Virus record (IMG/VR): IMGVR_UViG_3300013094_000017
Location: 124,001 to 188,000 of that record
Length of the DNA: 64,000 nt
Source of the DNA: a virus
Strand: one strand, 5' to 3'
The translations under genes were made by a program, and so were the position numbers. Positions 7,207 through 44,898 of this stretch are shown here, piece after piece. The notes below the pieces were generated by a model. The model was not told where the DNA came from. It saw only the letters and a list, made by a program, of their open reading frames with translations, and searched no databases. Position 1 is the stretch's first letter, and each line of letters begins with the position of its first letter.

Positions 7207-8382
7207 ATGTCACAATTATTAAACGAAAGATGGTCAGAGACCAAAGACGCGCTGCTTGAAGGCCTACAAGGTAACCGTAAAGCATCTATGAACGTAGTTT
7301 TAGAGAACACACGTAAGTACCTAGGCGAAGCAGCAACAGCAGGTGCAACAAGTTCTGGTAACGTAGCTACACTTAACCGTGTAATTCTTCCAGTAATTCG
7401 TCGTGTAATGCCAACAGTTATCGCTAATGAAATTATCGGCGTTCAACCAATGACAGGTCCAGTTGGACAAATCCACACATTGCGTGTACGTTACGCAGAC
7501 AGTGGTGATGGTATTGTAGCTGGTGAAGAAGCATTATCACCATTCAAGATTGCTGCTGCTTACTCTGGTAACAACACTGACTCAAATCCAAAAGCTGCTT
7601 CAACAGCACAATTGGAAGGTCAACCAGGTAAACGCATGTCAATCCAAATCTTGAAAGCTCCAGTTGAAGCTAAGTCTCGTAAACTAAGCGCACGTTGGAC
7701 TTTTGAGGCTGCTCAAGATGCACAAAGCCAACAAGGCATTGACATCGAAGCAGAAATCATGGCTGCACTAGCACAAGAAATTACTGCTGAAATTGACCAA
7801 GAGATCTTAGCATCTCTACGTGGTTTAGCTTCAGTAGAAGAAACATATGACCAAGCGTTAGTTTCAGGTACTGCTACATTCGTTGGTGATGAACATGCTG
7901 CTTTAGCAATTCAAATCAACCGTGTATCAAACTTGATCGCTCAACGTACACGTCGTGGCGCAGGTAACTGGGCAGTTGTTTCTAACCAAGCATTAACGAT
8001 TTTACAATCTGCTACTACTTCAGCTTTTGCTCGTACAACAGAAGGTACATTCGAAGCTCCAACAAATACTAAATTCGTTGGTACTTTAAACGGTGCTATG
8101 CGTATCTACGTTGACAGCTACAAAGCTGATACAGATACAACTAACCAAGTATTGATCGGTTATAAAGGTGCTTCAGAAGCTGATGCTCCTGCGTTCTACT
8201 GCCCATACATTCCTTTGATGTCAAGCGGTGTTGTATTAGATCCTAATACATTCGAACCAGTAGTTGGTTTCCTTACAAGATACGGCTACGTCGAGCTTTC
8301 AAATACTGCGAGTTCATTGGGCAATGCAGCTGACTACTTAGGTAAAGTGGCAATCAACAACCAAACAGTTTCATTCAAATAA
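7207..8382 (+). CDS. 23: Major capsid protein (T4 gp23-like)
   Basis: At 391 aa this is shorter than T4 gp23 (521 aa), a size seen among distant marine T4-like phages. Conserved family segments include NEIIGVQPMTGPVGQIHTLR, ARWTFEAAQDAQSQQGIDIE and the RRGAGNWAVVSNQAL region. The N-terminal part contains YLGE-AATAG: Leu39-Gly40-Glu41 fits the (L/I)xE rule for gp21 cleavage, so the mature protein probably starts near Ala42. A strong AAGGAGA site precedes the ATG. A UUCG-loop terminator lies 29 nt after the stop, which fits high expression and ends the head block. Confidence 0.96.
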   Translation: MSQLLNERWSETKDALLEGLQGNRKASMNVVLENTRKYLGEAATAGATSSGNVATLNRVILPVIRRVMPTVIANEIIGVQPMTGPVGQIHTLRVRYADSGDGIVAGEEALSPFKIAAAYSGNNTDSNPKAASTAQLEGQPGKRMSIQILKAPVEAKSRKLSARWTFEAAQDAQSQQGIDIEAEIMAALAQEITAEIDQEILASLRGLASVEETYDQALVSGTATFVGDEHAALAIQINRVSNLIAQRTRRGAGNWAVVSNQALTILQSATTSAFARTTEGTFEAPTNTKFVGTLNGAMRIYVDSYKADTDTTNQVLIGYKGASEADAPAFYCPYIPLMSSGVVLDPNTFEPVVGFLTRYGYVELSNTASSLGNAADYLGKVAINNQTVSFK

Positions 8383-8490: not shown

Positions 8491-9267
8491 ATGAACAAAT
8501 ACGAAAAATGGTATAATAATATAGTAGCAATGGGCTTAATAGATCGCCCTAATATGCGCACTGCCCGGCACCACATCATTCCTGAGAGTTTTTTCAAGAA
8601 TAGAACACGTAAAGGCCCCCCTGGGTGGTTAGATGGTAATCCTGATGATCCATCTAACCTCACATTTCTTACAGGAAGGGAACACTTTATATGCCACTGG
8701 CTATTGACTAAGATTTATAGCGGAGAAGCTAAAGCCAAGATGATATATGCATTACGGATGATGAGAGCAGGAGAATACTATACAAAAATAACTGCAAGAG
8801 TATATTCTAATATAAAAGAAGAATATTCTAAAATTGCTAGTACCGCTGTTTCTGGAGAAAATAATCCTATGTGGGGTAAAACACACACCGAAGAAACAAA
8901 AGATAAAATACGGCAAGCAAACCTAGGTAATCAAATAAATGAAGAACAGCGTAAAAAGATAAGTGACAGCAAGTTAGGCAGAAAGCGTTCGCCATTTAGT
9001 GATGAGTGGATAGCAAATATAAAAGCGGCAAGGCAAGGTGAATTAAATGGTATGTATGGAAAAAATCACTCAGAAGAAACTAGAAAGAAACAAAGCGAAA
9101 AAGCCAAAGGCAGAAAATATAGTGCAGATGTAGTTGAAAAACGTGCTGCAAAGATTAGAGGTAGTAAAAGAGAAAAACTTCTCTGCCCGCACTGTAATAA
9201 AGATGTAGCAGTAAATGGATATGCAAGATGGCACGGCGACAATTGTAAACTTAAAGGACCTAAATAA
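8491..9267 (+). CDS. HNH homing endonuclease with NUMOD3 motifs
   Basis: This 258-aa protein has an HNH nuclease core at about residues 25-70 (ARHHIIPESFF with His27/His28, Asn56 in DDPSNLTFL, and His65/His69 in REHFICHW). Two NUMOD3 DNA-binding modules follow at about 122-147 (GENNPMWGKTH) and 183-208 (GELNGMYGKNH). A C-terminal Cys2-His-Cys finger-like tail has Cys232, Cys235, His248 and Cys252. Such free-standing endonucleases spread by cutting homologous phage DNA and are common beside T4-like capsid genes. It has both a sigma70-type promoter and a late octamer upstream and no good ribosome-binding site. The next gene overlaps its stop (TAATG). A degenerate copy of its last codons lies at 9801-9848. 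Confidence 0.93.
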   Translation: MNKYEKWYNNIVAMGLIDRPNMRTARHHIIPESFFKNRTRKGPPGWLDGNPDDPSNLTFLTGREHFICHWLLTKIYSGEAKAKMIYALRMMRAGEYYTKITARVYSNIKEEYSKIASTAVSGENNPMWGKTHTEETKDKIRQANLGNQINEEQRKKISDSKLGRKRSPFSDEWIANIKAARQGELNGMYGKNHSEETRKKQSEKAKGRKYSADVVEKRAAKIRGSKREKLLCPHCNKDVAVNGYARWHGDNCKLKGPK

Positions 9268-14264: not shown

Positions 14265-17200
14265 ATGGCCATAGGTCGCATTTCCGGTCCGCTGCTATCG
14301 AAAAACCTGTTACGTGACGGGGTTGATCTAGCATTTGAAACCGATTTATTATATCTCGACGTTACAGACGGTCGCATCGGCATACGAAAAAGTAATCCAG
14401 CCTACGAGTTAGACGTCAACGGAACCATCAACGCAAACAATCTTCGAGTAACTTACACAGGTCCCGGCACAGGATCAGCAACACTTGGTAAGTTAACAAT
14501 TAACTCAGGAACAATTTCAACTACTGTTGGTCCAGTAACAATTCAACCTAGCGGCAATGATAAGATTAACCTAGTCGGTGACACAACCGTTACAGGAAAC
14601 TTACACGCAACTGGCAATATTACATCAGATGGCGATATTACCATTGGTGATAACGCAAATATTGATAATGTTGTATTCAATGCTGAAATTAAATCAAACA
14701 TTATTCCGGCGGCCACCGGCCTATACACATTAGGTAATGAGAATAATTCTTGGGCAACTACCTATGCCGACACAGTGGTTGCTAACGCATTATCTAGTCG
14801 TGGCAATATTGAAATCACCCCACATGGCGGTTTATTAGAAATCAACAGTGACATTCGCGTTAGTGGTAAGAATCCAATCGGTACTGCTCCGGTGGTTACC
14901 AACGTATTGTATGTAACAATGGACGGTAACGATACTAACGATGGCCGAGCACAAGATCCAAGTCGTGCATGTAAGACAATTAGTGGCGCTGTTCGTAGTC
15001 CTTACTATCGTCCGGGAACATTAATTCGTGTATCTAGCGGACACTATTACGAAAACAATCCAATTTTAATGCAGCCTAACACTGCTATCATCGGTGATGA
15101 CTTACGTACAACTAGTATTGAGCCGATTAACAAAACACAAGATTTATTTCACGTACAATCTGGTTGCTATCTAGCACAGATGCAGTTCTTAAATGGCCGC
15201 AGTGGATTATTACCTGGTCCTTATGTTCCTGGAACTAACCGCGGCGCATTTGCTGTGGCATTTCCTCCAAGCGTAAACGGCAAAAAGTTAGATGTATATC
15301 AATCACCATATATACAAAACTGTACTAACCAAAGCGGTCCTTGGTTAATTGATGGTACTGTGTTTGTTCCTAACCAAACTATACAAGTTCCTACAGGAGT
15401 AGGAATGACACAATTTGAAGCCAACACTAACACAATTACTGTAACAGTGTCAGAAGGTGTAATTAAATTAGGCGACAACGTTATCAGCGGTCCGCAAGAT
15501 CCTGGCTTCTTTAACGCAAGAACATTGTTGTTGGCAAACATACCATTTATAGAAGATCAAGCTATAACATACATTAATGACCTAGTGCTGACTGCAACTA
15601 ATACTAATGATATCGGAAATCCATTCTATAATTTTAAATATGAGCAATCTAAATGGTCACGAGATTTAGGACTTATCATTCAAAACATTGCTTACGATGC
15701 TACATTTGGTGGTAACCAAAAGAGTGTCGAATCTGGCTTAGCCTACTACAACGGTGTTGTCAACCTAATCGAAGGTCAACAGACACAATTTACCACAGCA
15801 ATTAATTACGTTAACACCTTAAGCCAAGCTATCATACAAAATATAGCGGTTACTCCTGTAAGTACTGCTACAACACAGGTAATTAATACAGCATTAGTAA
15901 ATGGCGTAATTGCCTCAGACGAGATCAATGCTGGTATCAGCATTATTACAAATATTATCAACAACGGTCCTGGTGTTGCTCCGGCTGTGTTTAATAGTTG
16001 CGGCCCAGAAAATCCAAGCGTTAGCGCAGAAATATTATTACAAGCAAATAGAACATTCTTACAAGAAGAAGTAACTGCGTATGTAGACGCACAGTATCCA
16101 ACCTTTGAATACAAAAAAGACTATTGCTACCGAGATGTTGGCTTGATCGTAGATGCGGTTAGCCAAGACATAATTGTAGGTGGCAACACAAAATCAATCG
16201 AAGCCGCATTAAGTTACTTCACAGGCAGCAAAGGAGATAGCAGCGTAGCTGAGCAGGCAATTACTAGCAACATTGAATTAATCAAAAATATTATCGTAAA
16301 CGGTTCTGCTACAGCACCTACTCCTATATCAGGACCAAACCAAGGCACCGGATTTAGCAATGCCGCTGACCTACTAACTAAGAATAAATTATTCCTACAA
16401 TCTGAAATCAGTGCGTATGTACGCACTATTATTACCTTAACTCCACAACAAGAAGCATTATGTTATAGAGACCTTGGGCTAATTGTTGATGCTCTATCTG
16501 CTGACACAGGAGCAGGCGGCAATGTAAACAGCATCTATGCTGCCTTACAATATTTCAGCGGTATGACTAACATCTTACCTAGCAATGAAATTACTCCATT
16601 AGCACAGGCGTTGGATTACATGGTTACCTTGTGTGCAAATATTGTTAAGAATACACAAAATACTAATCTATATCAAAAATTAATTTCTCAAGTAATATCA
16701 TTACCTGTGGCATCATTAGCAGAATACAATAGTGCCGCAGCTAATATAGATTTAATAACAGATATTATCACAGTTGGCCCAAGTGCTGCTCCAACTGATG
16801 TGCCAATTAGTCTATCAATGTCAACTGCTACCACAGCATATAACGCATTTAGAATACTAACAGAAAATAAAGATTTCTTATCAGCAGAAGTAACTGGATA
16901 TATTGACAGTGTATTTGGCGGCGGCTTTAACTACAATACAGGAACATGTTTTAGAGATACGGGACTTATTGTAGACAGTCTAGCATTTGACCTATTATAC
17001 CAAGGTAACACACAGGCTATATTTGCAGGTTCACAGTATTATAACCAAAGTACCTACACTGGTCAAATTGGTCGCGAACTAACCACAACCACTAATGCTA
17101 TTAAGTATGCTAAGATGTTAGCAGAATTAGTAGCGGTTAATTCGACTGTGACTAATTTACAAGCAGTATCTACACAGACATTTGATCTATCTAATCCGGG

Positions 17201-20200
17201 ATCAGATATTTCAACAGCAACGATTGAACAATTATTCAACACTGTTACTAATATATTAACTAATGGCACTGTGGGAATTACTAATCAAATAATTTCAAAT
17301 AGTACAGCTTCTAGCGACCTTGGAATTATTAATGCATTTACTCTTGTACAGGCAAATAAACAGTTTATTGAAGACGAAGTAATAGCCTATGTTGATAGTC
17401 TTAATCCGTCATTTGTCTACGATCAAGTTAAATGTTCTAGAGATACTGGCTTAATTGTTAAAGCACTAGCACAAGATTTAATGTTTAGTGGGAACAGTCA
17501 AAGTACATTTGCAGGATTACAATATTGGAATCAAAATGGTTACGTTGGCGCTATTTCAAATGAATTAACCACTACAACCAATGCAATTACCTATATTAGA
17601 GATCTAGCAATTAAAGTAATAACATTAGATACTAGCGGAACACGCTATCAAACAGCCGTAGGTCAATGGACCACAGGCACAGCCGCTACTATAGCTGAAA
17701 CACAATCAGTTTATGACGACTTTAATCTAATCCTTGACATTATTACCAACGGAACAGCTAATGTAACTGATAGAATTGTTTCTAATAGCCTAACTACCAG
17801 CACTAATGCTAATGTATTAAATGCTTATGCCTTATTAGAAGAGAATAAAGCATATTTACAAGCAGAAGCCATTGCTTTTGTTGAAGCCAGCAAGGCATTT
17901 GGCTTTGTTTATGATCCAGGTAAATGCAGTCGCGATATAGGTTACATGGTTGATAGCATTTCATTCGACTTATTATACGGTGGAAATAGACAGGCTATTC
18001 AAAGCGGTGTTTATTATTACGGCTTCTCCAATACTGCTACGCAAGTGCCAAATGAACAGGCACAGGTAAGTGCTGCCTACGATTATATTAAGACTCTAGC
18101 TTCATATATTGTTACTGGACAGCGTGTTCCTACACAATATCAAAGTATTGTTCCGCAGATTATTTCTGCAACTACAGGCACAGGATATCAAGCATCTTTA
18201 ATTAACACTAACATTGATACTATTGTTAGCATTGTAAATGGTGGACCTACACTAGCAGGAACTCCGAGTCCGATATCATTAACTACATCGGGTGATATAC
18301 ACGATATTAATGCAGCAATGTTGTTAGATGCCAACATGGCGTTTATTCAAGCGGAAGTAATTGCGTATATTAACTATCTATATCCTACAGGATTTACCTA
18401 CGATAGAACCAAATGTCGTAGAGATGTTGGTTATATTTTAGATTGTGTATGTTTTGATTTATTAAACGGCGGTAATAGACAAAGTATTCAAGCAGGTGTA
18501 TATTATTATGGATTTAACACATCATCTAGTGTATTAACCTACGAAATAGCACAGATAACGGCTGCGTACAATCATATCAAAACAATTGCTAACAATATTG
18601 TACAAAATATTCCAATAACTCCGACCTCTGGAAATACATATTCACAGGTCACATTAGGATCTACTGCTACTATTGCTGAAGCTGAATACATTGCCAGCGA
18701 CATTGATATTATCACTGATATTATTAACACAGGTGATATTGATTTCTATCCTAAGACACCTATTAGTTTAACCGCAAGTGTTGATGCTAATATAGTTGCT
18801 ACCTACGATCTACTATTAGCCAACAGAGAATTCATACAAAATGAATTAATTGCCTACATCAATTATTATTTCGTTCAACCATTTGTGTATAATAAAGAAA
18901 AATGCGCACGTGATACTAAACTAATTGTTGATTCTATTGCACTTGACATATTATACGAAGGTAGTTCACAAAGTTCATTTGCTGCATTACAATATTGGAA
19001 CCAATCTGGATACACCGGAGCGATTGCTAGTGAATTAACAACTACAACTAATGCTATAATCTATGCTAAAGGTCTAGTACAATCATACATTGTTACTCCA
19101 GATGAAAGTGATCAAGTTGGACATTTATTCGATACTATTGTAAATGTTATTACACAAGTGACCACAGGCACTACTGATTTAATAGTTCCTAATGGTTTAC
19201 CATCACCGGTTGTCTCAGTAAATAATGCTTATGCCGCAATTATAGCAAATAAGAGCGTGATACAACAACAAACAGTTGATTATGTAAATGCTACTAACCC
19301 AGGTTTCGTTTATAATACATCAACCTGCTATAGAGATGTTGGCTACATTATAGATTGTGTGGCATTTGACCTATTACACACTGGAAATAGACAAAGTATT
19401 CAAGCAGGAGTTTATTATTTCAGCTTTAACGGAACATCTAACCTAGTTGATACAGTCAGTGGCAATCCTGAAATCCCACAATCTACTGCGGCCTACACCT
19501 ATTTGAAATATCTAATGAAACAGGTGTTATTAAACAATCCAATAACACGCAGTTATCAAGTAGTTTATCCTCAGGTAATTATTCCAGCATATATGGGAAT
19601 GGCCACTGTTATTCCTGGCGAACAAAATATTACAGTTGATGCTATTCACTATCTAAACGATTTAAGTTTAAATGTAATTAGTAATACTTCTGTACCTGTG
19701 GTACGTTCATCAACTGCACAGACTATGTACCCTAATTTTGAAGGCGGTGCTTATGCAGGTCCGGGTATAACTAGAAATTACAATACCATTGCCGATATTA
19801 TTCAAAATGGACCAAATGTAGCACCAGTACCGTTTGCTGGCAGTGGATTATTTGCTACCACAGGTGTTAGTTCAGACGATGTACGACAAAGTCCAACAGT
19901 TATTGCCCTATCTACAGTGACAACTGGCACATATTTGGTAACATTGTCAGGGTCAACCGTAGGTGATTCACAAAACGGTACATTGTATTTTGGTAAAACT
20001 GAGGTTTATCCAGCACAAGATGCAGATGTACCTGACGAATGGGCACAACGTCGCGTTGATGTATTAGGTTCTATGGGCGGTGCGCTGGTAGATGGCGGTG
20101 TAGTAAGTGCTCGTTCACCGATTCAGTCATTCGTATTTGACGCATATACTCAGGTTAACCAAGGCGGACGTGGGGTATATGTTACAAATAACGGCTACGC

Positions 20201-21689
20201 ACAGTTAGTATCTGTGTTTACAATTTTCTGTTCAACTGCGGTACAGGTTGACAACGGTGGCATTTGTTCTATTACTAACTCTAACAGTAACTTCGGTGAT
20301 CAATGTTTGGTGGCTAAAGGATATGGCAAATTAGAATTTAGTGGTACAGTGTTCAATCCTCCTTATCCAAGTTACCAGCCAAACGGTCAATATTATCCGA
20401 ATGGTTACTATCCTAAGAATGGTGTAGCGGAAATCTTCTTGCCAGATACTGCTAATCGTCCGCATATTGGTTTGGTAATGGAAATTGAACCGCCATTAGG
20501 TCATATTAACGAACAAGGTTATCCAGGATTCTTAAATGCTGCACCATCGTTGGCAACATTAACTACAGGAACTATCACAATTGATGGTATTGACACAACA
20601 GGTATTGCTGTGGGTAATAGAGTAGACATCCGTGATCAATACGGCAACACCTATTATGTTGCCGATGGCACAACAGTAGTTGATGTTAATTACCAAAGCA
20701 TCACATTGAACAAAGGATTGATCAGTGGCGGCGGTGATCCAACTAATAGTAATTACTTTAACTTATATTTCTCTGGCAATGCTTACTATACTGTACTGTC
20801 TAGTCAACTATCTGAAGCATATAATACAGGAACTAATGCTACTGTTATTCCTTCGGATCAAATAGGCCCAGAATTAGATGCATTAGCCTTCTTAAGAGAT
20901 TCTAGTCTAGGAAATGTATTAGTAGGTGCTAGTGTTGATCCTAGCTCAATAACGTTTATTGACAATAGTATTAACACAATTATCAGTATTGTAGGGGCAA
21001 GTGACCTAACTGCGGCACGTGCGGTTGTTCCAGCGCCATCTAAAGTAGGAACACCACCGAGTGGCGCAAGTCTAGCGATTACAACTATTAATAATAACAT
21101 TGAAGCAATAGTAACTGCTACGATTGCCCACGTTGTGACCACATTCCCTGATATTAGTTTACCTACAGGACTAGGAGCACCAACTGATTTAACCACCTAT
21201 CTAACAAATAAATGTGCTAGAGATATTAGATTAGTCCTAAGACAACTAGTATACGATCTAGAAACAGGTGGCAACTACTATTCAGCCTATGCTGGATTAA
21301 GTTATTGGATTCGTACAGGCACACATCACATCGTTGATCTTGGGGAAGCAGTTAATAATACTGCACTATTCCCAGATGGCGCTATTGTAAACTTCTATCA
21401 ACGTAGTTACATCAGTGCATCAGGATACTTGTTTGAGTATGTTGGTGCTGGAACTAACTATGGAGCACTACCTCAACGCGGAGTGGCTGATCCTGTACAA
21501 ACCAAAGAAGTAATACAGTTAAATAATGGTAAGGTGTTCTTTACGTCAACAGACCAAAACGGTGACTTTAGAATTGGTCCAGGATTAGTAGTAAGTCAAG
21601 CAACTGGTGTATTATCAGGACGCACATTTACTAAATCATTATTTGCAAACTTAACGCCATTCATATTGGCAATTGAAGGCGGAGGCTAA
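14265..21689 (+). CDS. Giant fibre/structural protein with helical repeats and beta-helix segments
   Basis: This 2,474-aa protein has, in order: a fibre-like N-terminus (residues 1-210, with the motif YELDVNGTINANNLRV); a right-handed beta-helix-like part (about 218-345, DGNDTNDGRAQDPSRACKTI, of the kind seen in pectate-lyase-fold tail proteins); ten divergent helical repeats of about 100-160 residues, each carrying KCxRDxGLIVDxxxxDLLxGGNxQSI; a second beta-helix part around 1,900-2,100 (GVYVTNNGYAQLVSVFTIFC); and a C-terminal DFRIGPGLVVSQATGVLSG segment. Comparable very large repeat proteins occur in cyanophage-type tails. AGGAG lies just upstream of the start. The role is inferred as a long tail fibre or whisker; no enzymatic residues are evident. 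Confidence 0.75.
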   Translation: MAIGRISGPLLSKNLLRDGVDLAFETDLLYLDVTDGRIGIRKSNPAYELDVNGTINANNLRVTYTGPGTGSATLGKLTINSGTISTTVGPVTIQPSGNDKINLVGDTTVTGNLHATGNITSDGDITIGDNANIDNVVFNAEIKSNIIPAATGLYTLGNENNSWATTYADTVVANALSSRGNIEITPHGGLLEINSDIRVSGKNPIGTAPVVTNVLYVTMDGNDTNDGRAQDPSRACKTISGAVRSPYYRPGTLIRVSSGHYYENNPILMQPNTAIIGDDLRTTSIEPINKTQDLFHVQSGCYLAQMQFLNGRSGLLPGPYVPGTNRGAFAVAFPPSVNGKKLDVYQSPYIQNCTNQSGPWLIDGTVFVPNQTIQVPTGVGMTQFEANTNTITVTVSEGVIKLGDNVISGPQDPGFFNARTLLLANIPFIEDQAITYINDLVLTATNTNDIGNPFYNFKYEQSKWSRDLGLIIQNIAYDATFGGNQKSVESGLAYYNGVVNLIEGQQTQFTTAINYVNTLSQAIIQNIAVTPVSTATTQVINTALVNGVIASDEINAGISIITNIINNGPGVAPAVFNSCGPENPSVSAEILLQANRTFLQEEVTAYVDAQYPTFEYKKDYCYRDVGLIVDAVSQDIIVGGNTKSIEAALSYFTGSKGDSSVAEQAITSNIELIKNIIVNGSATAPTPISGPNQGTGFSNAADLLTKNKLFLQSEISAYVRTIITLTPQQEALCYRDLGLIVDALSADTGAGGNVNSIYAALQYFSGMTNILPSNEITPLAQALDYMVTLCANIVKNTQNTNLYQKLISQVISLPVASLAEYNSAAANIDLITDIITVGPSAAPTDVPISLSMSTATTAYNAFRILTENKDFLSAEVTGYIDSVFGGGFNYNTGTCFRDTGLIVDSLAFDLLYQGNTQAIFAGSQYYNQSTYTGQIGRELTTTTNAIKYAKMLAELVAVNSTVTNLQAVSTQTFDLSNPGSDISTATIEQLFNTVTNILTNGTVGITNQIISNSTASSDLGIINAFTLVQANKQFIEDEVIAYVDSLNPSFVYDQVKCSRDTGLIVKALAQDLMFSGNSQSTFAGLQYWNQNGYVGAISNELTTTTNAITYIRDLAIKVITLDTSGTRYQTAVGQWTTGTAATIAETQSVYDDFNLILDIITNGTANVTDRIVSNSLTTSTNANVLNAYALLEENKAYLQAEAIAFVEASKAFGFVYDPGKCSRDIGYMVDSISFDLLYGGNRQAIQSGVYYYGFSNTATQVPNEQAQVSAAYDYIKTLASYIVTGQRVPTQYQSIVPQIISATTGTGYQASLINTNIDTIVSIVNGGPTLAGTPSPISLTTSGDIHDINAAMLLDANMAFIQAEVIAYINYLYPTGFTYDRTKCRRDVGYILDCVCFDLLNGGNRQSIQAGVYYYGFNTSSSVLTYEIAQITAAYNHIKTIANNIVQNIPITPTSGNTYSQVTLGSTATIAEAEYIASDIDIITDIINTGDIDFYPKTPISLTASVDANIVATYDLLLANREFIQNELIAYINYYFVQPFVYNKEKCARDTKLIVDSIALDILYEGSSQSSFAALQYWNQSGYTGAIASELTTTTNAIIYAKGLVQSYIVTPDESDQVGHLFDTIVNVITQVTTGTTDLIVPNGLPSPVVSVNNAYAAIIANKSVIQQQTVDYVNATNPGFVYNTSTCYRDVGYIIDCVAFDLLHTGNRQSIQAGVYYFSFNGTSNLVDTVSGNPEIPQSTAAYTYLKYLMKQVLLNNPITRSYQVVYPQVIIPAYMGMATVIPGEQNITVDAIHYLNDLSLNVISNTSVPVVRSSTAQTMYPNFEGGAYAGPGITRNYNTIADIIQNGPNVAPVPFAGSGLFATTGVSSDDVRQSPTVIALSTVTTGTYLVTLSGSTVGDSQNGTLYFGKTEVYPAQDADVPDEWAQRRVDVLGSMGGALVDGGVVSARSPIQSFVFDAYTQVNQGGRGVYVTNNGYAQLVSVFTIFCSTAVQVDNGGICSITNSNSNFGDQCLVAKGYGKLEFSGTVFNPPYPSYQPNGQYYPNGYYPKNGVAEIFLPDTANRPHIGLVMEIEPPLGHINEQGYPGFLNAAPSLATLTTGTITIDGIDTTGIAVGNRVDIRDQYGNTYYVADGTTVVDVNYQSITLNKGLISGGGDPTNSNYFNLYFSGNAYYTVLSSQLSEAYNTGTNATVIPSDQIGPELDALAFLRDSSLGNVLVGASVDPSSITFIDNSINTIISIVGASDLTAARAVVPAPSKVGTPPSGASLAITTINNNIEAIVTATIAHVVTTFPDISLPTGLGAPTDLTTYLTNKCARDIRLVLRQLVYDLETGGNYYSAYAGLSYWIRTGTHHIVDLGEAVNNTALFPDGAIVNFYQRSYISASGYLFEYVGAGTNYGALPQRGVADPVQTKEVIQLNNGKVFFTSTDQNGDFRIGPGLVVSQATGVLSGRTFTKSLFANLTPFILAIEGGG
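15630..21310 (+). repeat. Ten-copy helical protein repeat (CxRDxG...GGN)
   Basis: Within the 2,474-aa protein the motif [Y/N]xxxKCxRDxGLIVDxxxxDxxxGGNxxSIxAxxxYY occurs ten times. Examples are WSRDLGLI, CYRDVGLI, CFRDTGLI, CSRDTGLI, CSRDIGYM, CRRDVGYI, CARDTKLI and CARDIRLV. Each repeat then carries an ExxxTxxAxxYIKxLA helix, and eight or so have an INxxxLLxANxxFIQxEVIAYI helix upstream. Copies are divergent, so this is an old array. Confidence 0.8.
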
Positions 21690-21700
21690 GAGGAAAGATT

Positions 21701-22096
21701 ATGGCATTAATACCATTAAACACGTTTAAAACAAAAACAGCGATATTACAAGGTGATTGGACCTACGGAACAACCGCCACGGTATATACAGCACCAATTG
21801 GCGTTACATCAATTATATTAATGACACAGGTAGCTAATGTTAGCACACAGACTCATACAGTTACATTTGCTCATTCAAGAAATTTTCCAATATTTGCCGA
21901 TGCACAAGGTAATGGAGCTCAACCAGCAGGTGTAGTTACTGAATTGATACAACAATTTGCTATTCCGACTAATGATGCGGCTAGTCTAACCACTGGTAAA
22001 ATGATTATTGAAAGTCTTGACAGTGTAATTTGTTATGCAGATGCAGATGGTGTAATGAAATTAACTATGAGTATCTTGGAGACAGCTAATGCCTAG
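21701..22096 (+). CDS. Small virion structural protein
   Basis: A 131-aa protein, all-beta in pattern (VYTAPIGVTSIILMTQVANV, THTVTFAHSRNF), of the small-sandwich type often placed next to fibre genes. AGAGGAAAG precedes the ATG. Its stop overlaps the start of the next fibre gene by 8 nt, so the two are probably co-translated and may act together. Could be a fibre-attachment or capping protein; this is inference. Confidence 0.55.
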   Translation: MALIPLNTFKTKTAILQGDWTYGTTATVYTAPIGVTSIILMTQVANVSTQTHTVTFAHSRNFPIFADAQGNGAQPAGVVTELIQQFAIPTNDAASLTTGKMIIESLDSVICYADADGVMKLTMSILETANA

Positions 22097-25000
22097 TTTA
22101 ATTAGCGGCCGCACACTTGTTACCAGCGCACCGAATCTACAAGATAGCCGCTATCAATTCCTAAATCTAGCCCAAGCACAACCTGCGCTTGGCCCTACTC
22201 CTTCAACTAGCACAGGATATACTCTAGTTGCTGGACCAAACGGCTCGGTAGCCTACACAAATAGTTTAGGAAATTTAATATTCTCAACAGGTACTATTAG
22301 TACAAACTTACCTAATGAAAATATAACATTAGTTACAACTGGCACAGGCATTATACAATTATCGTCTAGTCTAGTAAGTGTTGATGTTGCAATGACATTT
22401 ACCAATGTATCAGGGTATATAGATCTAGGCGGTCGCCCTAGTTATCGTATTCCAAATTACTACGAAGGTATCACACCACCAGACAACACACAGTTCTGGG
22501 CAGGCGACCAATGGTATGATCAGGTTAATGATGTCTTATATGAATACACCTTAGACGACAGCGGCCCATCGTGGGTAGATATTACAGGTCCGTTCTTTAG
22601 TACATCAGTATCAAACGGATTTATAGGCAGTGGTGGCGGAGGCAGCGGCAATGGATATACCGGATCTAAAGGTGATGTAGGTCCAAGTGGTGGATATACT
22701 GGCTCACGAGGTAGTCAAGGATATTATGGAAGTCGAGGTTACATAGGTAGTATCGGTACAGGTTACCAAGGTAGTCAAGGTACTACTGGATATACGGGTA
22801 GTTTTGGAAATCAAGGATACACAGGTAGCCGAGCATATACTGGTAGTACTGGTTATGTTGGATCACAAGGTATATCAGGATACTACGGTAGCCAAGGAAC
22901 ATTAGGTTATACTGGCAGTCGCGGCTTTACCGGCAGCACAGGTTATGTCGGATCACAGGGCATTACTGGATACACAGGCAGTTTGGGATATGTAGGTAGC
23001 CGCGGTTACACAGGTAGTCGAGGTGACACAGGGTATACCGGTAGTCAAGGTGCTATGGGATATACTGGTAGTCTGGGATATTTCGGTAGTCAAGGATACA
23101 CCGGAAGCCAAGGCATTACAGGATATATTGGTTCACAAGGCCTTCAAGGATATTTCGGAAGCCAAGGATATTTCGGAAGCCAAGGCTACACTGGATCGCA
23201 AGGTATTCAAGGTATTCAAGGTAACACGGGATTTAATGGTAGCTTTGGTTACACAGGTAGTCGAGGCATTACTGGATACTACGGATCGCAAGGTATTGTA
23301 GGGTTTACTGGATCACAGGGCTATTTTGGTAGTCAAGGGTATTTTGGTAGTCGAGGAGTTACAGGATTTGATGGTAGTCAAGGGGTTATCGGCTATACCG
23401 GATCACAGGGCTACACCGGATCACAGGGATTCTTTGGATCACAAGGAGTGGTTGGATTTAACGGTAGCCGTGGCGACCTTGGATACACTGGTAGTCAAGC
23501 GTATACTGGTAGTATAGGCTTTGTCGGTAGTCAAGGCACTGTTGGATATAATGGATCACTTGGTGGCATCGGATATGCTGGTAGTATTGGATATACTGGA
23601 TCACAAGGGGTAGTAGGATATGTTGGCTCGCAAGGTGACCTCGGCTATGCTGGTAGTATTGGATATACTGGATCACAAGGGGTAGTAGGATATGTTGGCT
23701 CGCAAGGTGACATCGGATATGTAGGTAGCTTAGGATATGCGGGCAGTGTCGGATATGTCGGTAGCCAAGGGCTTGGATATACAGGAAGCCAAGCGTATAC
23801 TGGTAGCATAGGTTTTGTTGGTAGTCAAGGAATTATTGGGTATACTGGTAGTATTGGTGGCATTGGATATACAGGTAGTATCGGGTACACTGGTAGTCAA
23901 GGCACACTTGGTTATTTTGGTAGCTATGGGTATACAGGTAGTGTCGGATATACAGGCAGTCGTGGGTATACTGGCAGCATTGGCTATGTAGGCAGCATTG
24001 GCTACGTAGGTAGTTCAGGAGCATTTGGTGCTATTGGATTTACTGGAAGTCAAGGTAATATTGGATATGTAGGCAGCATCGGATATGTAGGTAGTCAAGG
24101 ACTTGGTTATGCTGGTAGTGTAGGTATTGGGTACACAGGTAGTCTAGGCTATGTTGGTTCAATAGGATATACCGGAAGTCAGGGTATTACTGGTTATGTT
24201 GGATCATTCGGTAGTCAAGGTATAATTGGTTACGTCGGAAGTATTGGTTATGTAGGTAGCACAGGATCGTTTGGTGCAATTGGATTTACAGGTAGTACTG
24301 GTTATGTTGGCAGTCAAGGCATTACTGGTTACACAGGTAGTACCGGAGCCGCAGGTGCGGGCGGATACCTAGGTAGTATCGGCTATACCGGTAGTCAAGG
24401 TGCTACGGGATATCTCGGTAGTCAAGGTAATATTGGCAATATAGGATATGCAGGTAGTCGCGGAGTAACTGGATTTAATGGTAGTCAAGGCTCTATTGGA
24501 TATTCGGGTAGTATCGGCTATACTGGTAGTGCAAGTACTGTACAGGGACCAACGGGATATACAGGCAGCGGAAGCGCCTCGGTGTCAGCAACACCGACCT
24601 CAATTGGTAGTGTTTATGCCTATACAACCTCAACCCGAAACAATACCGCATTAGGCTACTGTGCCGGCAATACAACAATGGTCGGTCGTAGTAATGTTGC
24701 TATTGGATACGGAGCTTTGGGTGTAAACACCTATGGTTCCAATAATATAGCAATGGGCTGTTTTGCATTAACATTTAATACCGCTGGATGTGCCAATGTC
24801 GCATTAGGATACAGTGCAATGCACGACAACTGCTACGGTGGATGTAATATTGCCCTAGGATGGCAGGCTTTATATGCTAATCAAACTGGTTGCAATAATA
24901 TTGCAATTGGATGTACAGCATTAGTTAATGCAAATAATACTGGAACTAACATTGGTATAGGTGCTGCTGCTGGTATTAATATTACAACTGGTATTAATAA

Positions 25001-26741
25001 TACTGTTATTGGTTCATTACCAGCCGCTGCTGGTTGTGTATGTACAGTATTAATTGGTGCAGGTACCTGTGAACGTATACTTGTAAATGACAGCGGTATG
25101 ACCATCAATGGATTATACACTGTAAGTACAGCATCGGCTGTAGTAGCAGCTACTCCAACAGTATTAGGTACTGTTTACGCTTATACTCCAAGTACTTACG
25201 GTAATGTATTTGTCGGTTATTGTGCCGGTAATAATACAGTAACTGGCGGCGGCAATATTGCCCTAGGAGGTGCTTCACTTAGAAATGTCACAACCGGCGG
25301 TAACAATATTGCCATCGGTGGTAGTGGTACACTTTGCAGTCTTAACATAGGTAGCAATAATATTGCTATCGGGTCTCACACATTATCTGCAACTACTAGC
25401 AGTTATGCTAACATAGCAATAGGACATGGGTCATTGTCCTGTAACTCTACAGGACAATGTAATATTGCTTTGGGGTGTAGCCTTTATTATAATACCTACG
25501 GCAATAATAACATTGCAATGGGAGCTGGGGCATTGTTCTGTAACTCTACAGGCACTAACAACTTTGCAGCAGGGTGGGATAGTTTAAAATCAAATTTATC
25601 CGGCTGCGATAACATTGCAATCGGCTATAACGCAAACAGTAACGGTGGTGGCTCGTGTAATATCGCACTCGGAGCTAATGCACTTGGTGGTATTTGCTTC
25701 ACAAGCACAAACAATATCGGTATTGGTGCGTGTACCTTAGCTAATCCGTTTGGCGGCGCTGGATCTTGCAACATTGCAATCGGGTGCTATGCATTTGGTT
25801 GCTTAACTGGTGGGTTTGGTAATAATATTGGTATTGGTGTATGTGCAGGGTATGGTATTAATAACGGTGGGAATAATACTGTTATTGGTAATCTAGTAGG
25901 AGGCTGTACTTGCCAATATACTGTATTAATCGGCGCAGGTACATGTGAACGTATTCGTGTTGATAACAGCGGATTATATATTAACGGAACAATATTTACA
26001 GCAGGCGGCGGATACACAGGTAGTGTTGGTTATATTGGATCAGCAGGCTCTGCAGGAACAAATGGATATACCGGTAGTACTGGTTACGTAGGATCACAAG
26101 GTATAGGCTATGCTGGTAGTATCGGGACCGGATATACCGGCAGTGCGAGTACCGTACAAGGACCACTTGGATATACTGGTAGTATCGGCTACGCAGGTAG
26201 CATTGGATATGTAGGCAGTGCTAGTAGCATAATTGGTTACACTGGTAGTAGTGGTGCTGCATCCTATCAAGGATATACTGGATCACAAGGTATTGGATAC
26301 GTGGGCAGTATTGGATATGTAGGTAGCACAGGTCCGGGAGTATCAACTTCTACTAATATGCAGGTTAATAGCCTAGGTGTTGGAGTAGTAGCATCAGGAA
26401 CAACTGGCGAAATACGTGCTACCAATGCCATTACTTCTTACTACTCAGATGAAAGATTGAAGACCAATCTTGGCAACATACCTAATGCACTAGACAAGTT
26501 ATTAACATTAGATGGGTTCTACTATGAAGCCAATCAACTAGCACAGACATTAGGCTATGCAGTTAAACGAGAAGTAGGTATATCAGCACAACAGGTGCAA
26601 AAAGTATTGCCAGAAGTAGTAACGCCGGCACCGATTGATAGTCAATACCTAACTGTGTATTATGAAAGATTAGTGCCATTGTTGATAGAAGCAATTAAAG
26701 AATTGAAAGCAGAAGTTGATCAATTAAAAGGAAAGAATTAA
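22089..26741 (+). CDS. Collagen-like tail fibre with S74 chaperone
   Basis: This 1,550-aa fibre is modular. Residues 1-185 form an attachment region. Residues 189-827 are an almost unbroken Gly-X-Y tract (GYTGSQG type). About 835-1305 carry NIAIG solenoid repeats closed twice by a TVLIGAGTCERI cap. A second Gly-X-Y tract follows at about 1306-1418. The C-terminal 100 residues are a peptidase S74 intramolecular chaperone, with SDERLK containing the Ser1453-Lys1458 dyad spacing. S74 domains trimerise the fibre and then cut themselves off. The gene overlaps the preceding small gene by 8 nt and uses GGAGA inside it as ribosome-binding site. A receptor-binding fibre is the likely role. Confidence 0.9.
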   Translation: MPSLISGRTLVTSAPNLQDSRYQFLNLAQAQPALGPTPSTSTGYTLVAGPNGSVAYTNSLGNLIFSTGTISTNLPNENITLVTTGTGIIQLSSSLVSVDVAMTFTNVSGYIDLGGRPSYRIPNYYEGITPPDNTQFWAGDQWYDQVNDVLYEYTLDDSGPSWVDITGPFFSTSVSNGFIGSGGGGSGNGYTGSKGDVGPSGGYTGSRGSQGYYGSRGYIGSIGTGYQGSQGTTGYTGSFGNQGYTGSRAYTGSTGYVGSQGISGYYGSQGTLGYTGSRGFTGSTGYVGSQGITGYTGSLGYVGSRGYTGSRGDTGYTGSQGAMGYTGSLGYFGSQGYTGSQGITGYIGSQGLQGYFGSQGYFGSQGYTGSQGIQGIQGNTGFNGSFGYTGSRGITGYYGSQGIVGFTGSQGYFGSQGYFGSRGVTGFDGSQGVIGYTGSQGYTGSQGFFGSQGVVGFNGSRGDLGYTGSQAYTGSIGFVGSQGTVGYNGSLGGIGYAGSIGYTGSQGVVGYVGSQGDLGYAGSIGYTGSQGVVGYVGSQGDIGYVGSLGYAGSVGYVGSQGLGYTGSQAYTGSIGFVGSQGIIGYTGSIGGIGYTGSIGYTGSQGTLGYFGSYGYTGSVGYTGSRGYTGSIGYVGSIGYVGSSGAFGAIGFTGSQGNIGYVGSIGYVGSQGLGYAGSVGIGYTGSLGYVGSIGYTGSQGITGYVGSFGSQGIIGYVGSIGYVGSTGSFGAIGFTGSTGYVGSQGITGYTGSTGAAGAGGYLGSIGYTGSQGATGYLGSQGNIGNIGYAGSRGVTGFNGSQGSIGYSGSIGYTGSASTVQGPTGYTGSGSASVSATPTSIGSVYAYTTSTRNNTALGYCAGNTTMVGRSNVAIGYGALGVNTYGSNNIAMGCFALTFNTAGCANVALGYSAMHDNCYGGCNIALGWQALYANQTGCNNIAIGCTALVNANNTGTNIGIGAAAGINITTGINNTVIGSLPAAAGCVCTVLIGAGTCERILVNDSGMTINGLYTVSTASAVVAATPTVLGTVYAYTPSTYGNVFVGYCAGNNTVTGGGNIALGGASLRNVTTGGNNIAIGGSGTLCSLNIGSNNIAIGSHTLSATTSSYANIAIGHGSLSCNSTGQCNIALGCSLYYNTYGNNNIAMGAGALFCNSTGTNNFAAGWDSLKSNLSGCDNIAIGYNANSNGGGSCNIALGANALGGICFTSTNNIGIGACTLANPFGGAGSCNIAIGCYAFGCLTGGFGNNIGIGVCAGYGINNGGNNTVIGNLVGGCTCQYTVLIGAGTCERIRVDNSGLYINGTIFTAGGGYTGSVGYIGSAGSAGTNGYTGSTGYVGSQGIGYAGSIGTGYTGSASTVQGPLGYTGSIGYAGSIGYVGSASSIIGYTGSSGAASYQGYTGSQGIGYVGSIGYVGSTGPGVSTSTNMQVNSLGVGVVASGTTGEIRATNAITSYYSDERLKTNLGNIPNALDKLLTLDGFYYEANQLAQTLGYAVKREVGISAQQVQKVLPEVVTPAPIDSQYLTVYYERLVPLLIEAIKELKAEVDQLKGKN
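22653..24570 (+). repeat. Collagen-like Gly-X-Y tract
   Basis: About 640 residues in Gly-X-Y register, dominated by GYTGSQG, GYVGSIG, GYFGSQG and GYAGS. Proline is nearly absent and Tyr, Thr, Ser, Gln and Val fill X and Y. At DNA level the copies share near-identical blocks such as ggatatactggtagt. Confidence 0.9.
24640..25980 (+). repeat. NxAIG solenoid repeats, first array
   Basis: Runs of a roughly 17-residue unit (N-N-I-A-I-G-x-x-A-L-x-x-N-T-T-G-x) resembling the head repeats of trimeric adhesins. Two blocks, each ended by CTVLIGAGTCERI or YTVLIGAGTCERI followed by a GLYING or GMTING strand. Confidence 0.8.
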
Positions 26742-43200: not shown

Positions 43201-44898
43201 GGTGTGAGTGCATTGCAGTGCAATACCACTGGCATCTGCAATTCCGCGGTTGGTATGAGTGCATTGCAGAGCAATACCATTGGCAACAACAATTCCGCAC
43301 TTGGTGTAAGTGCATTGCAGTACAATACCATTGGCAGCTGCAATTCCGCAGTTGGTGTGAGTGCATTGCAGTGCAATACCACTGGCAACAACAATTCTGC
43401 ACTTGGTGTGAGTGCATTGCAGTGCAATACCACTGGTACCAATAATATCGGTGTAGGATACAATGCAGGATGTGCAATTACCACTGGTAATAATAACACA
43501 GTTATCGGTTCACTGCCAGCAGCCGCAGCTTGCGTATGTACAGTATTAATTGGTGCTGGCTCTTGTGAGCGTATTCGTGTAGACAACAGCGGTATGACCA
43601 TCAATGGATTATATACTGTAAGTACCGCTACTGTATCAGCAGCCACTCCGACCTCACTTGGTACAGTATTTGGCTACACAACCAGCAATGGTAACACAAG
43701 TGTGGGATGTTGTAGTGGTAATACCACACAAACTGGCTGCAATAATATTGCCATTGGATGCTGTGCCCTAATTGCAAATACCACCGGCTGCCACAATATT
43801 GCACTTGGCGCACTTGCACTAACCAAAAATACTGCTGGTTCAAACAATTTTGCAGTAGGATATAATGCCCTGTGTTCTAACCTAATAGGTAACTTTAACG
43901 TGGCTATTGGTTGCCAGGCCCTGTTGGCTAACACCAGCGGTGTTGATAATCTAGCCATAGGCTACGGTGCACTACAAAATAACATCACAGGTATTAGTAA
44001 TTTTGCTGTAGGTCGCGCAGCACTATGCCAAAACTGTGGTAATAATAACATCGCACACGGATGTGCTGCCTTAACTAAAAACACAGTGGGTAATAATAAT
44101 TTTGCCGCGGGCTGCTTTGCCTTGTGCGCAAACATATCAGGGTGTGATAACGTTGCTATTGGGTCTAGCGCATTATACAATAATACCACTGGTAACTCAA
44201 ATACAGCCATTGGTAATGGTGCTCTATATAATAATACTACTGGTGCAACCAATATTGCAATTGGATGCTGTTCAATGTTCCAAAACACCACTGGTACCAA
44301 TAATATTGCAGTTGGATTTAATGCAGGTTGTGCAATAACCACTGGTGCAAACAATACTGTTATCGGTTCATTACCAGCAGCCGCAGCCTGTGTATGTACA
44401 GTACTAATCGGCGCAGGCACGTGTGAACGTATACGTGTAGATAACAGCGGATTGTATATCAACGGTACAGCAGCTGGCGGATTCTCATCAACAGACGATG
44501 TTTCAACTAATGCTACATATTATCCTGCAATTGTTACCACAGCAGGTGGATCAACTGCTAAAACAAGTTCAAGCAAACTAACATTTAACCCTAGCAGCGG
44601 TGTGCTAAGTGCTGTGGTCTTTACCTCCTTGTCAGATCGAACTGCCAAAACTAATATCAATTCGGTGACCAATGCTGTTAGTACTCTACAATCCGTACAG
44701 GGTGTAAGTTTTGATTGGATAGACAACGGTGATAGATCATACGGGGTTATCGCCCAGGACATTGAACAGATATTACCAGCTGTGGTAAGTACTCTAGCTG
44801 ATGGTAAGAAATCAGTTAACTATCCTGCATTAACTGCCTTCTTAATTGAAGCAGTTAAAGAACTTGATGCTAGAGTGCGTGTATTGGAAAGTAAATAA
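37300..44898 (+). CDS. Giant modular receptor-binding fibre with Gly-rich, LamG-like and S74 domains
   Basis: At 2,532 aa this is the largest protein here. Order: NIAIG repeats with cap (15-197); GALTVAGGAGVAGNLNVGG module; a polyglycine domain (about 287-535, with blocks such as GGGGGGTGSGGGGGAGG); two more GALTVAGG modules; a LamG/concanavalin-like domain (about 740-945, FTIEFWMKAGS...NVWHHIACVKSG...GYIFVDG); a YVDGTQFIVN domain; a Gly-X-Y tract (about 1111-1173); long NIAIG arrays with several TVLIGAGTCERI caps (about 1184-2388); and an S74 chaperone (SDRTAK, Ser2445-Lys2450). Gly-rich and LamG parts are typical cell-surface or glycan-binding elements, so this is the best candidate for the main adhesin. 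Its stop overlaps the next ATG (TAATG). Confidence 0.88.
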   Translation: MAIKICGNTIIPNLSGSDTTTGNLAVGYNALVSNTTGCCNTALGVNSLRGNTTGCQNVAVGANALQGNTIGTCNIAIGQNSLCSNTSGSNNVAVGQLSLLNNTIGSCNIALGNSTLFCNVSGCFNIAIGYNVLNCNLSSNNIAIGTCAGYSITTGNNNTIIGNITGTNSLVCTVLIGAGTCCRIQVDNSGLYINGTLAVISTSTLQAVTNVGFTTTNAINITNTATSTGTATGALTVAGGAGVAGNLNVGGNATVNYLVSFTSSANVGLSISGIAAVSAPSTVAVLTVAGGGGGGTGSGGGGGAGGVISDSAYSVTTSTPITVTVGAGGAGAAYPGGGPATSGSNSVFGTWTAIGGGRGASDTPYAASSGGSGGGGVWDSTGGGSGTSGQGNNGGHGGNYTGGGYYGGGGGGGWGSAGGDGGNSTAGAGGTGYNASIIDSTAAATLAVGEVYSGSVWFAGGGGGGADSERGGTGGAGGHGGGGSGGLITNPNGDGAAGLPNTGGGGGGTTNDSPSPSAGGGAGGSGVVIVSYPTSYGPIASITGTLTYSSVVSGSNYIYAFKSGTGSITFGSAGTDAKTWLYDGSANWVSSQGIKAQSNLASTSTNTGALTVAGGAGIGGAMYINTTSYIAGAQILTTATVNSFVTAGVSSVAAGTDTAISTSTGAVTVWNTSTLQSITNRGSTTTNAITINNATASTGTTTGALTVAGGVGIAGDLNVGGNIKTNQLVTFKTGPNSGLVVDTGITGGYVGGSVYFNGSTGMRLPTTSLLQFNSSDFTIEFWMKAGSSQTTYATITDASTNNSATEIGVGNNSGNSPGKIGFQAAPGYEINGSTTILDNVWHHIACVKSGNNGYIFVDGALDATATGWSGITAAYLNGGSLGRSSYGSGGNGDNTYTGYITNFRISNYARYTSAFTPSTSSVLANDANTVLLMLETNSGGLYTDSSSNGFTITSLNGTPSWDSSSPIYATSGVYSTLTYDGSANWVSSQGIKVLGNTASTSTTTGALQVVGGVGIGGNLNVGGTAYIAGNLYVDGTQFIVNSTNISTGDKTITLSTGSTSTVLAANSGILIGSTATNTAYISLLYDGAGNWVSSGGLKVNGIWSVLTGTGSIGYSGSIGYTGSFGYTGSTGYTGSQGITGYTGSTGYTGSTGTQGIVGYQGSGGVGYQGSAGSGGLAYATPTTIGGVYALTTTTGNNAFFGYNSGNTTTTGNNNHAVGYTALAANTTGNNNIAIGTGALAVNTIGSNNFAAGCSALASNTTGNDNVAIGFCALFCNTSGISNIAIGNNALTINTTGFDNIALGDHALVSNTGGSHNFAVGCCSLRNNTIGCSNVAIGCAALQANTTGVNNFAVGNLALAANTTGVNNTAIGQCALNANISGINNTAIGCCALAKNTAGIANLAIGCLALVNNTVGGNNTALGTGALLQNTTGNNNVAIGNRSLYCNSVGGGSIALGQNALYGNTIGSNNYALGYFSLFTNISGSNNVSIGCYSLYNSLGSNNIALGANAGCAITTGVNNTVIGNLYGAAACVCTVLIGAGTCQRILVNDSGLFVNGSAFAVSTGSSVVAATPTVLGTVYAYTTGNGNTALGQNAGNTTMSGANNIAIGCQTLSVNTTGANNIALGVGALCGNTTGASNIALGFSALTFNTTGTNNIALGICALKNSTTGTDNFAAGACTLYTNVSGSNNIAIGNGAGWALCTGSNNFAAGYQTLYAGVFSCTSGCNNIAIGYQSLYSNTAGNNNIALGCCALYANTTGQSNIALGLSAGCAITTGANNTIIGSLPAAAGCVCTVLIGAGTCERIRVDNSGMTINGLYTVSTASAVVAATPTALGTVYAYTPVGTNLFVGYQSGNTTLTGTCNIAHGAFSLSVNTTGVGNIAIGVNTLCLNTSGSSNIAIGGGALSANTTGNTNIAVGVSTLCSNTTGFSNSAVGASALQYNTIGSRNSAVGMSALQCNTTGNNNSALGVSALQCNTTGICNSAVGMSALQSNTIGNNNSALGVSALQYNTIGSCNSAVGVSALQCNTTGNNNSALGVSALQCNTTGTNNIGVGYNAGCAITTGNNNTVIGSLPAAAACVCTVLIGAGSCERIRVDNSGMTINGLYTVSTATVSAATPTSLGTVFGYTTSNGNTSVGCCSGNTTQTGCNNIAIGCCALIANTTGCHNIALGALALTKNTAGSNNFAVGYNALCSNLIGNFNVAIGCQALLANTSGVDNLAIGYGALQNNITGISNFAVGRAALCQNCGNNNIAHGCAALTKNTVGNNNFAAGCFALCANISGCDNVAIGSSALYNNTTGNSNTAIGNGALYNNTTGATNIAIGCCSMFQNTTGTNNIAVGFNAGCAITTGANNTVIGSLPAAAACVCTVLIGAGTCERIRVDNSGLYINGTAAGGFSSTDDVSTNATYYPAIVTTAGGSTAKTSSSKLTFNPSSGVLSAVVFTSLSDRTAKTNINSVTNAVSTLQSVQGVSFDWIDNGDRSYGVIAQDIEQILPAVVSTLADGKKSVNYPALTAFLIEAVKELDARVRVLESK
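43087..43443 (+). repeat. Seven near-identical 51-bp tandem repeats
   Basis: Seven in-frame units of NSA[V/L]GxSALQ[C/Y/S]NT[T/I]Gxx. At DNA level they share gagtgcattgcagtgcaat and neighbouring bases almost unchanged, much closer than other units of the same gene, which points to recent expansion. Confidence 0.85.

Follow-up and report, generated by a model that had tools for sequence, protein, structure and literature searches.

Why would a giant phage fibre protein carry ten copies of a helical unit centred on a conserved C-x-R-D motif? The question is raised by an open reading frame (ORF) of 2474 amino acids at positions 14265–21689 (plus strand) of a 64,000-nucleotide stretch of viral DNA, hereafter the window, which comprises positions 124001–188000 of the 259-kb IMG/VR virus record IMGVR_UViG_3300013094_000017 (G000). 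Computation reveals a repeat that is conserved across related viral loci, resembles phycobiliproteins in profile and fold, has its C-x-R-D on their chromophore cysteine and is inserted into a protein that also occurs without it. We propose that the array consists of phycobiliprotein-fold domains strung together within a protein that, judging by the family names and annotations of its relatives, would be carried on the virion as a fibre or baseplate decoration; that the Cys/Arg/Asp site would hold a linear tetrapyrrole, linked covalently at the Cys; that this bilin would be produced during infection by the phage's own heme oxygenase and bilin reductase or, in cyanophages, by the host; and that the pigmented fibre would alter adsorption or particle stability in light. 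We give this account as a whole a probability of about 45%.

The repeat array and its carrier

The ten-copy repeat described by the first-pass annotation of the window is real: the ORF holds ten units of about 162 residues, and their description as helical agrees with the six helices of a unit modelled by AlphaFold2 without templates. A hidden Markov model (HMM) trained on units from the window and from its relatives recovers all ten with E-values of 1e-30 to 1e-60, plus a partial unit near residues 1778–1820. All on the plus strand, the units are repeat 1 (residues 380–541, positions 15402–15887), which has a 13-residue insertion before the motif and Trp464 at the Cys position, with Arg and Asp kept; the short repeat 2 (537–672, 15873–16280, motif C621); repeat 3 (673–810, 16281–16694, C733); repeat 4 (811–972, 16695–17180, C895); repeat 5 (973–1134, 17181–17666, C1057); repeat 6 (1137–1298, 17673–18158, C1221); repeat 7 (1300–1461, 18162–18647, C1384), modelled as positions 18150–18674; repeat 8 (1463–1624, 18651–19136, C1547); repeat 9 (1604–1765, 19074–19559, C1688), whose start as cut overlaps repeat 8; and repeat 10 (2233–2394, 20961–21446, C2317), the most phycobiliprotein-like copy.

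The span first assigned to the array, 15630–21310, covers the ten motifs, but the units themselves reach from about 15402 to 21446. Likewise, the proposed CxRDxG consensus holds strictly for Arg and the first Asp (10/10 each) and less so for Cys (9/10) and Gly (8/10; Lys in copy 8 and Arg in copy 10). The Asp said to follow it is present in every copy at position +14 relative to the Cys, whereas the exact GGN occurs in six copies only (x-G-N in nine), and a Tyr at +30, absent from that annotation, is found in all ten. Motif-to-motif distances of 157, 112, 162, 162, 164, 163, 163, 141 and 629 residues make the spacing near-constant, as claimed, in the middle of the array but not at its ends, and copy 10 stands apart. 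From composition, 0.026 C.RD motifs would be expected against the nine observed, and none of 20,000 shuffles contained more than two.

By sequence, the carrier matches known tail-fibre and virion-protein families, its PHROG hits being phrog_5342 (tail fiber, E 5e-92), phrog_4527 (short tail fiber, E 3e-82) and phrog_701 (virion structural protein, E 3e-49). Relatives in isolates carry tail or structural annotations, which for Syn9 read ‘structural protein, putative fiber’. A search with the full ORF against 50,697 GenBank phage records matched 371 of them, namely 290 Synechococcus, 56 Cyanophage, 14 Prochlorococcus, 10 Marine and one uncultured. The source phage is a T4-type jumbo myovirus, whose T4-like portal, head protease, major head protein and tail-sheath stabiliser are encoded in the window. 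A second ORF (1629 residues, G000 C1 30780–32111) is a paralogue that resembles the non-repeat parts of the fibre protein, residues 1931–2025 and 2381–2450.

Relatives of the protein exist without the array. Residues 211–371 (positions 14895–15377, plus strand), which by eye look like a β-helix, are 41% identical to a 619-residue protein of cyanophage S-SRM01 (blastp), and this relative matches residues 211–371, then 1954–2031 (positions 20124–20357, plus strand) and then 2372–2472, with almost nothing between the first two. The SynMITS9220M01 protein gives the same order of blastp matches, with residues 103–375 as its first segment, and the C-terminal piece of the ORF (residues 2372–2474, positions 21378–21686, plus strand) shows 52–53% identity to the repeat-less cyanophage relatives. 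No repeats were found anywhere in the S-SRM01 or SynMITS9220M01 genomes. As these relatives join the flanking segments directly, residues ~372–1953 constitute a removable, discrete inserted module of nine units; copy 10 lies outside it, in the C-terminal part of the protein.

Probable kinship with phycobiliproteins

Sequence searches and structure prediction, both among the checks suggested by the first-pass annotation, lead to phycobiliproteins. The whole ORF scores 36.1 bits (E 7.8e-9) against Pfam PF00502, Phycobilisome, and repeat 10 alone scores 26.9 bits, which places both above the curated cut-off of 22.2; the match of repeat 7 is sub-threshold (15.6 bits) and collinear in position. Among 97 diverse units taken from contigs of related viruses, 17 also match PF00502, as do 19 of 37 two-unit pieces, each other listed family being matched by one in either set, so that the sequence scans picked this one family out of 24,736. 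A profile of the 97 units, run against PDB sequences, ranks phycocyanins first to third (E 0.0051, 0.018 and 0.024) with the C and RD in register, and nine of the 16 PDB sequences at E≤1 are phycobiliproteins. Furthermore, hhalign aligns the unit profile to 19 phycocyanins with a probability of 84 (score 40.6), rising to 92.6 (score 46.7) when only α-phycocyanins are used; the corresponding nulls score at most 22.5 for 60 column shuffles and 15.5 for reversal.

The model of unit 7 is confident, with a mean predicted local distance difference test (pLDDT) score of 90.7 and a predicted template modelling score of 0.86. Foldseek fills its first 12 PDB ranks with 11 phycobiliproteins and a single ‘Bacterial fluorescent protein’, and among the VIA-align matches listed 50 of 50 fall into the same two categories, with about 110–128 aligned residues, root-mean-square deviations of 2.5–4.3 and Z-scores of 9.5–10.4; chance alone can give a helical model a Z-score as high as 13. 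The VIA-align matches run mostly from PDB residue 32 on, and the N-terminal helical pair is without a clear match. A model of units 7 and 8 together is weaker (mean pLDDT 67); its best matches are C-phycocyanin (Z 9.9) and a photocobilin (Z 7.9 over 100 residues), with unrelated chains from 5.2 down. The C-phycocyanin match draws residues from both units (range 40–318), which may reflect swapped domains or confusion in the modelling. The viral models that match best include S-WAM2 and S-CAM1 tail proteins as well as the GC 830 protein of S-PM2.

Several results, apart from the chance level of helical Z-scores, weigh against this kinship. None of the Foldseek E-values is ≤0.001, and they are not significant; the other eight single copies gave no match to PF00502 in the Pfam scan; the remaining seven PDB sequences at E≤1 are cytolysins, which begin at E 0.026 and align over another part of the profile; and hhalign against β-phycocyanins only found no match (probability 1.3). 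On balance, predicted models place the unit in the globin-like phycobiliprotein fold, and we regard it as very probably a distant homologue of the bilin-binding globins.

The members of PF00502 closest to the units in these comparisons are the α-phycocyanins, with which the phage units have in common a length of ~162 residues, a helical fold, an Asn and KC-x-RD-x-G core and the aligned chromophore Cys. Unlike phycobiliproteins, the phage units stand in tandem in one giant viral protein, have a shorter loop before the Cys and possess invariant D+14 and Y+30 residues. The α/β heterodimers that phycobiliproteins form in phycobilisome rods with linkers are unlikely for them, given this tandem viral context.

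Phycobiliprotein-like domains in cells are light-harvesting proteins and the bilin biosynthesis-associated globins (BBAGs) of unknown function. BBAGs, in the account given by passages of PMC10151467, are phycobiliprotein paralogs outside phycobilisomes that are tied to heme oxygenase and bilin reductase, and the CXRD motif ascribed there to BBAG-1/3 is present in the phage units. By description the two are set apart, BBAGs being cellular globins in gene clusters, whereas the phage units are repeats of a fibre gene far from the operon, and the fibre gene does not share a cluster with heme oxygenase and pre-PcyA. We do not file the phage unit as a BBAG because the heme oxygenase and reductase genes lie ~165 kb from the fibre gene; the two may nonetheless work similarly.

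Photocobilins, or photoglobins (PDB 8j2x), the second-best match of the two-unit model, are globin photoreceptors that bind both B12 and bilin. A Pfam scan of the 2474-residue ORF, which would not register a partner acting in trans, found no B12-type family. Giant tail or structural proteins of cyanophages (S-PM2 p088 and p218, Syn9 gp101 and Syn1_032; T4-GC 830 and 734) contain the same repeat family. Their units differ in being far more divergent, with the Arg relaxed in half of them and fewer detectable copies per protein, and the phages belong to another lineage, Kyanoviridae of about 180–200 kb.

The conserved site and the question of a bound bilin

C-x-R-D aligns with the phycobiliprotein chromophore cysteine and its neighbours, and nine of the ten copies in the ORF possess this Cys84-type site with Arg and Asp beside it. 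We take Arg86 and Asp87 of phycobiliproteins to touch the bilin; D+14 and Y+30 are not known to be bilin ligands. In 619 unique units from 71 loci (what remains of 795 HMM matches once duplicates have been removed, together with units in which under ~100 columns matched), these are the five most conserved columns, with Cys at 97%, Arg at 98%, Asp at 99% and D+14 and Y+30 at about 100%. The earlier view that conservation of Cys, Arg and Asp in a fibre-size protein points to a structural or binding site is thus borne out. Passages of PMC10151467 describe CXRD as common to phycobiliproteins and to BBAG-1/3, globins whose bilin binding requires no lyase. We tentatively suggest that binding of a bilin, or of another tetrapyrrole, may have been retained at the Cys/Arg/Asp site. 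That such a pigment would matter in the virion, through light sensing, photoprotection or light-dependent adsorption, seems unlikely, and it is similarly doubtful that the fibre domains would be working biliproteins, giving a virion with a built-in pigment as sensor or photoprotectant during adsorption.

Bilin genes are present in the phage. A second contig, G001, comes from this phage too: at the fibre gene the two are 99.9% identical over 20 kb, and the initial 20 kb of G000 match it at 100.000%. It encodes heme oxygenase (hemO) and a bilin reductase of the ferredoxin-dependent type, and the two genes overlap (L086 9414–9944 and 9925–10602). G000 starts at position 73,512 of G001, which puts this operon beyond its reach; in G001, the operon and the fibre gene lie about 165 kb apart and do not form one cluster. 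By eye, the region around hemO and the reductase (L086 8631–15019) also encodes a small heat-shock protein, a ClpS-like protein whose gene overlaps hemO, a CsgG-like lipoprotein, a curli-like repeat protein and a FecR-like protein.

Bilin genes were considered as proof of a pigment, on the expectation that they track the repeats; capsid-matched controls and the phages Mosig and P-SSM2 undid this. Among 40 fibre-gene records (G000 and 39 of 80 relative loci) searched for bilin, CpeT and psbA families, only three have heme oxygenase and reductase, adjacent to each other, and none has CpeT; nor did a search for the psbA/psbD family, aimed at inferring the host, find any member in these 40. CpeS was not found in 24 of the jumbo-phage records, in a search that found S-CREM2 cpcV as its positive control. 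Starting from the reductase (40 of 80 loci, mostly on longer contigs), repeats are present in 6/6 records of at least 100 kb and in 2/34 shorter ones. The controls, matched through the T4-type major head protein (7207–8382, plus strand; phrog_138, E 5.6e-100) and covering 10 of 80 capsid loci, mostly on long contigs, have repeats in 6/10 overall and in 5/6 at ≥100 kb, and a reductase in 0/10. Since controls carry repeats nearly as often, co-occurrence of repeats and reductase is inseparable from clade membership.

Isolates add to this. Pelagibacter phage Mosig has bilin genes and no repeats, S-CREM2 has the lyase gene cpcV and no repeats, and repeats are missing from P-SSM2, a bilin-gene phage that carries pebS, according to a passage of PMC2984593. 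In the literature it is a carrier of ho1 as well. Repeats were not found in T4, HTVC008M, Vibrio phage 2.275.O or Pseudomonas phage Ettore, the last two of which have the nearest isolate capsids among the matches listed (72% and 67%) and also contain no bilin reductase. Finally, in the profile alignment the loop before the Cys, which we take to be part of the bilin pocket in phycobiliproteins, is 8–11 residues shorter in the units than in phycocyanins.

Repeats occur in all eight cyanophage records with a reductase match that were tested (nine of 17 records including Mosig, most of the others being duplicates of these). In Sf-CH3 (PV340851.1, 19626–34862), CpeT, a 2OG-Fe(II) oxygenase and a bilin reductase precede a 4.3-kaa repeat-bearing structural protein, whose gene is about 40 bases from the reductase. 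A CpeT match was obtained in 23 named phages, and in 19 of these CpeT, a member of a chromophore-lyase family, is encoded 0.6–6.5 kb upstream of, and in the same orientation as, either a tail gene that bears repeats or a match to the repeat (13 by listed coordinates and six by HMM; Sf-CH1a, Sf-CH1b and AG-345-P14 were left out), and in S-SCSM2R the HMM found no repeats in the adjacent gene after CpeT. This proximity is only suggestive of a pigment because (i) T-type lyases, according to a passage of PMC10452541, serve Cys153 and not Cys84, (ii) the phages are related and have a common gene order, so that the 19 cases are not independent events, and (iii) the CpeT neighbourhood is tRNA-rich and may be a hot spot for accessory genes. 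The S-PM2 record (AJ630128.1, 168556–170625) places fifteen tRNA genes within p218, an ORF that bears repeats, and on its strand, which is probably a coordinate mistake.

The main rival, nearly as likely as the pigment reading, is structural reuse, in which the units descend from a bilin-binding globin, hold no pigment and serve as a modular spacer or decoration, with C, R, D, D and Y forming an internal network of hydrogen bonds and packing contacts. In its favour, bilin genes do not track the repeats, and D+14 and Y+30 are even more conserved than C, R and D. Copy 1 has Trp for Cys, and the 21 units that have lost the Cys mostly keep Arg (16/21) and Asp (17/21) and always D+14 (21/21). Among 31 cyanophage-isolate units, no more than 15/31 retain the Arg, which also counts against bilin binding, yet Cys (27/31), D+3 (29/30), D+14 (28/31) and Y+30 (30/31) persist. 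Both the retention of Asp and Arg after loss of the Cys and the relaxed Arg of cyanophages fit a partly structural role. What structural reuse accommodates poorly is the Cys itself: its presence in 97% of the 619 virion-type units, 463 of which have no second Cys, is unusual for a purely structural residue, and C-x-R-D is the exact bilin-site signature of the related family as passages of PMC10151467 present it.

It is improbable that the old site holds a different ligand (heme, another tetrapyrrole or a metal via Cys and Asp) or forms inter-chain disulfides between neighbouring chains. In favour of this, a conserved site goes together with a short pocket loop, bilin genes are not a general feature of the clade, and the photocobilin match shows that relatives have other cofactor partners; however, no CxxC- or His-type second metal pattern is conserved in the ranked columns, and one Cys per unit rules out an intra-unit disulfide. 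The metal or salt-bridge clusters along a shaft that had been offered as examples of a role were rejected on the same ground, a second metal-type ligand pattern not being conserved in the ranked columns of the units, and homology favours instead a phycobiliprotein-like domain with C-x-R-D at the bilin site. An equally low probability attaches to a generic helical repeat that resembles phycobiliproteins by chance or convergence, for which speak the non-significant Foldseek E-values, the scores of most single units below the Pfam cut-off and the failure of β-phycocyanins alone to align, but against which independent routes agree: one Pfam family of 24,736, the PDB sequences, hhalign with its shuffled nulls and two models.

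Returning to the proposed phycobiliprotein-fold fibre with a bound bilin, the fold is known, and no report of phycobiliprotein-like domains in virions, or of the tandem form in a phage fibre, was found in searches of open-licence PubMed Central papers. The use of phage bilin genes is called ‘a mystery’ in a passage of PMC3037559 and ‘still enigmatic’ in one of PMC11480375, which raises interaction with BBAGs as one possible use of phage-made bilin and, in that passage, names no phage protein; adsorption of several cyanomyoviruses is light-dependent according to a passage of PMC2984593. If the proposal is true, phage bilin genes would gain a product inside the virion, and light-dependent cyanophage adsorption a phage-borne receptor. 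Two questions become directly testable, namely the purpose of phage-made bilins and the reason why cyanomyovirus adsorption depends on light. S-PM2, a cultured phage, has the same repeats with strict C-x-R-D (five such units in p088), which permits a test without a new isolate. If no pigment is bound, an antenna-type fold would have been reused as a fibre module, and domains in giant cyanophage proteins at present annotated as hypothetical would receive names.

Other genes of the window

The repeat protein is adjoined by a 1550-residue protein (22089–26741) that combines collagen-like repeats (GYTGS/GSQG) with an S74 intramolecular chaperone at its C terminus. Further along, in a phage structural region, three neighbouring ORFs (44898–46088, 46746–47957 and 48447–49622) consist almost purely of RCC1 β-propeller repeats. 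Two sulfotransferases (52703–53491 and 57492–58316) and a Nol-like carbamoyltransferase (55094–56782), with glycosyltransferases close by, form what looks like a cluster for modification of surface sugars. A homing endonuclease gene (8491–9267) lies directly 3′ of the major head protein gene.

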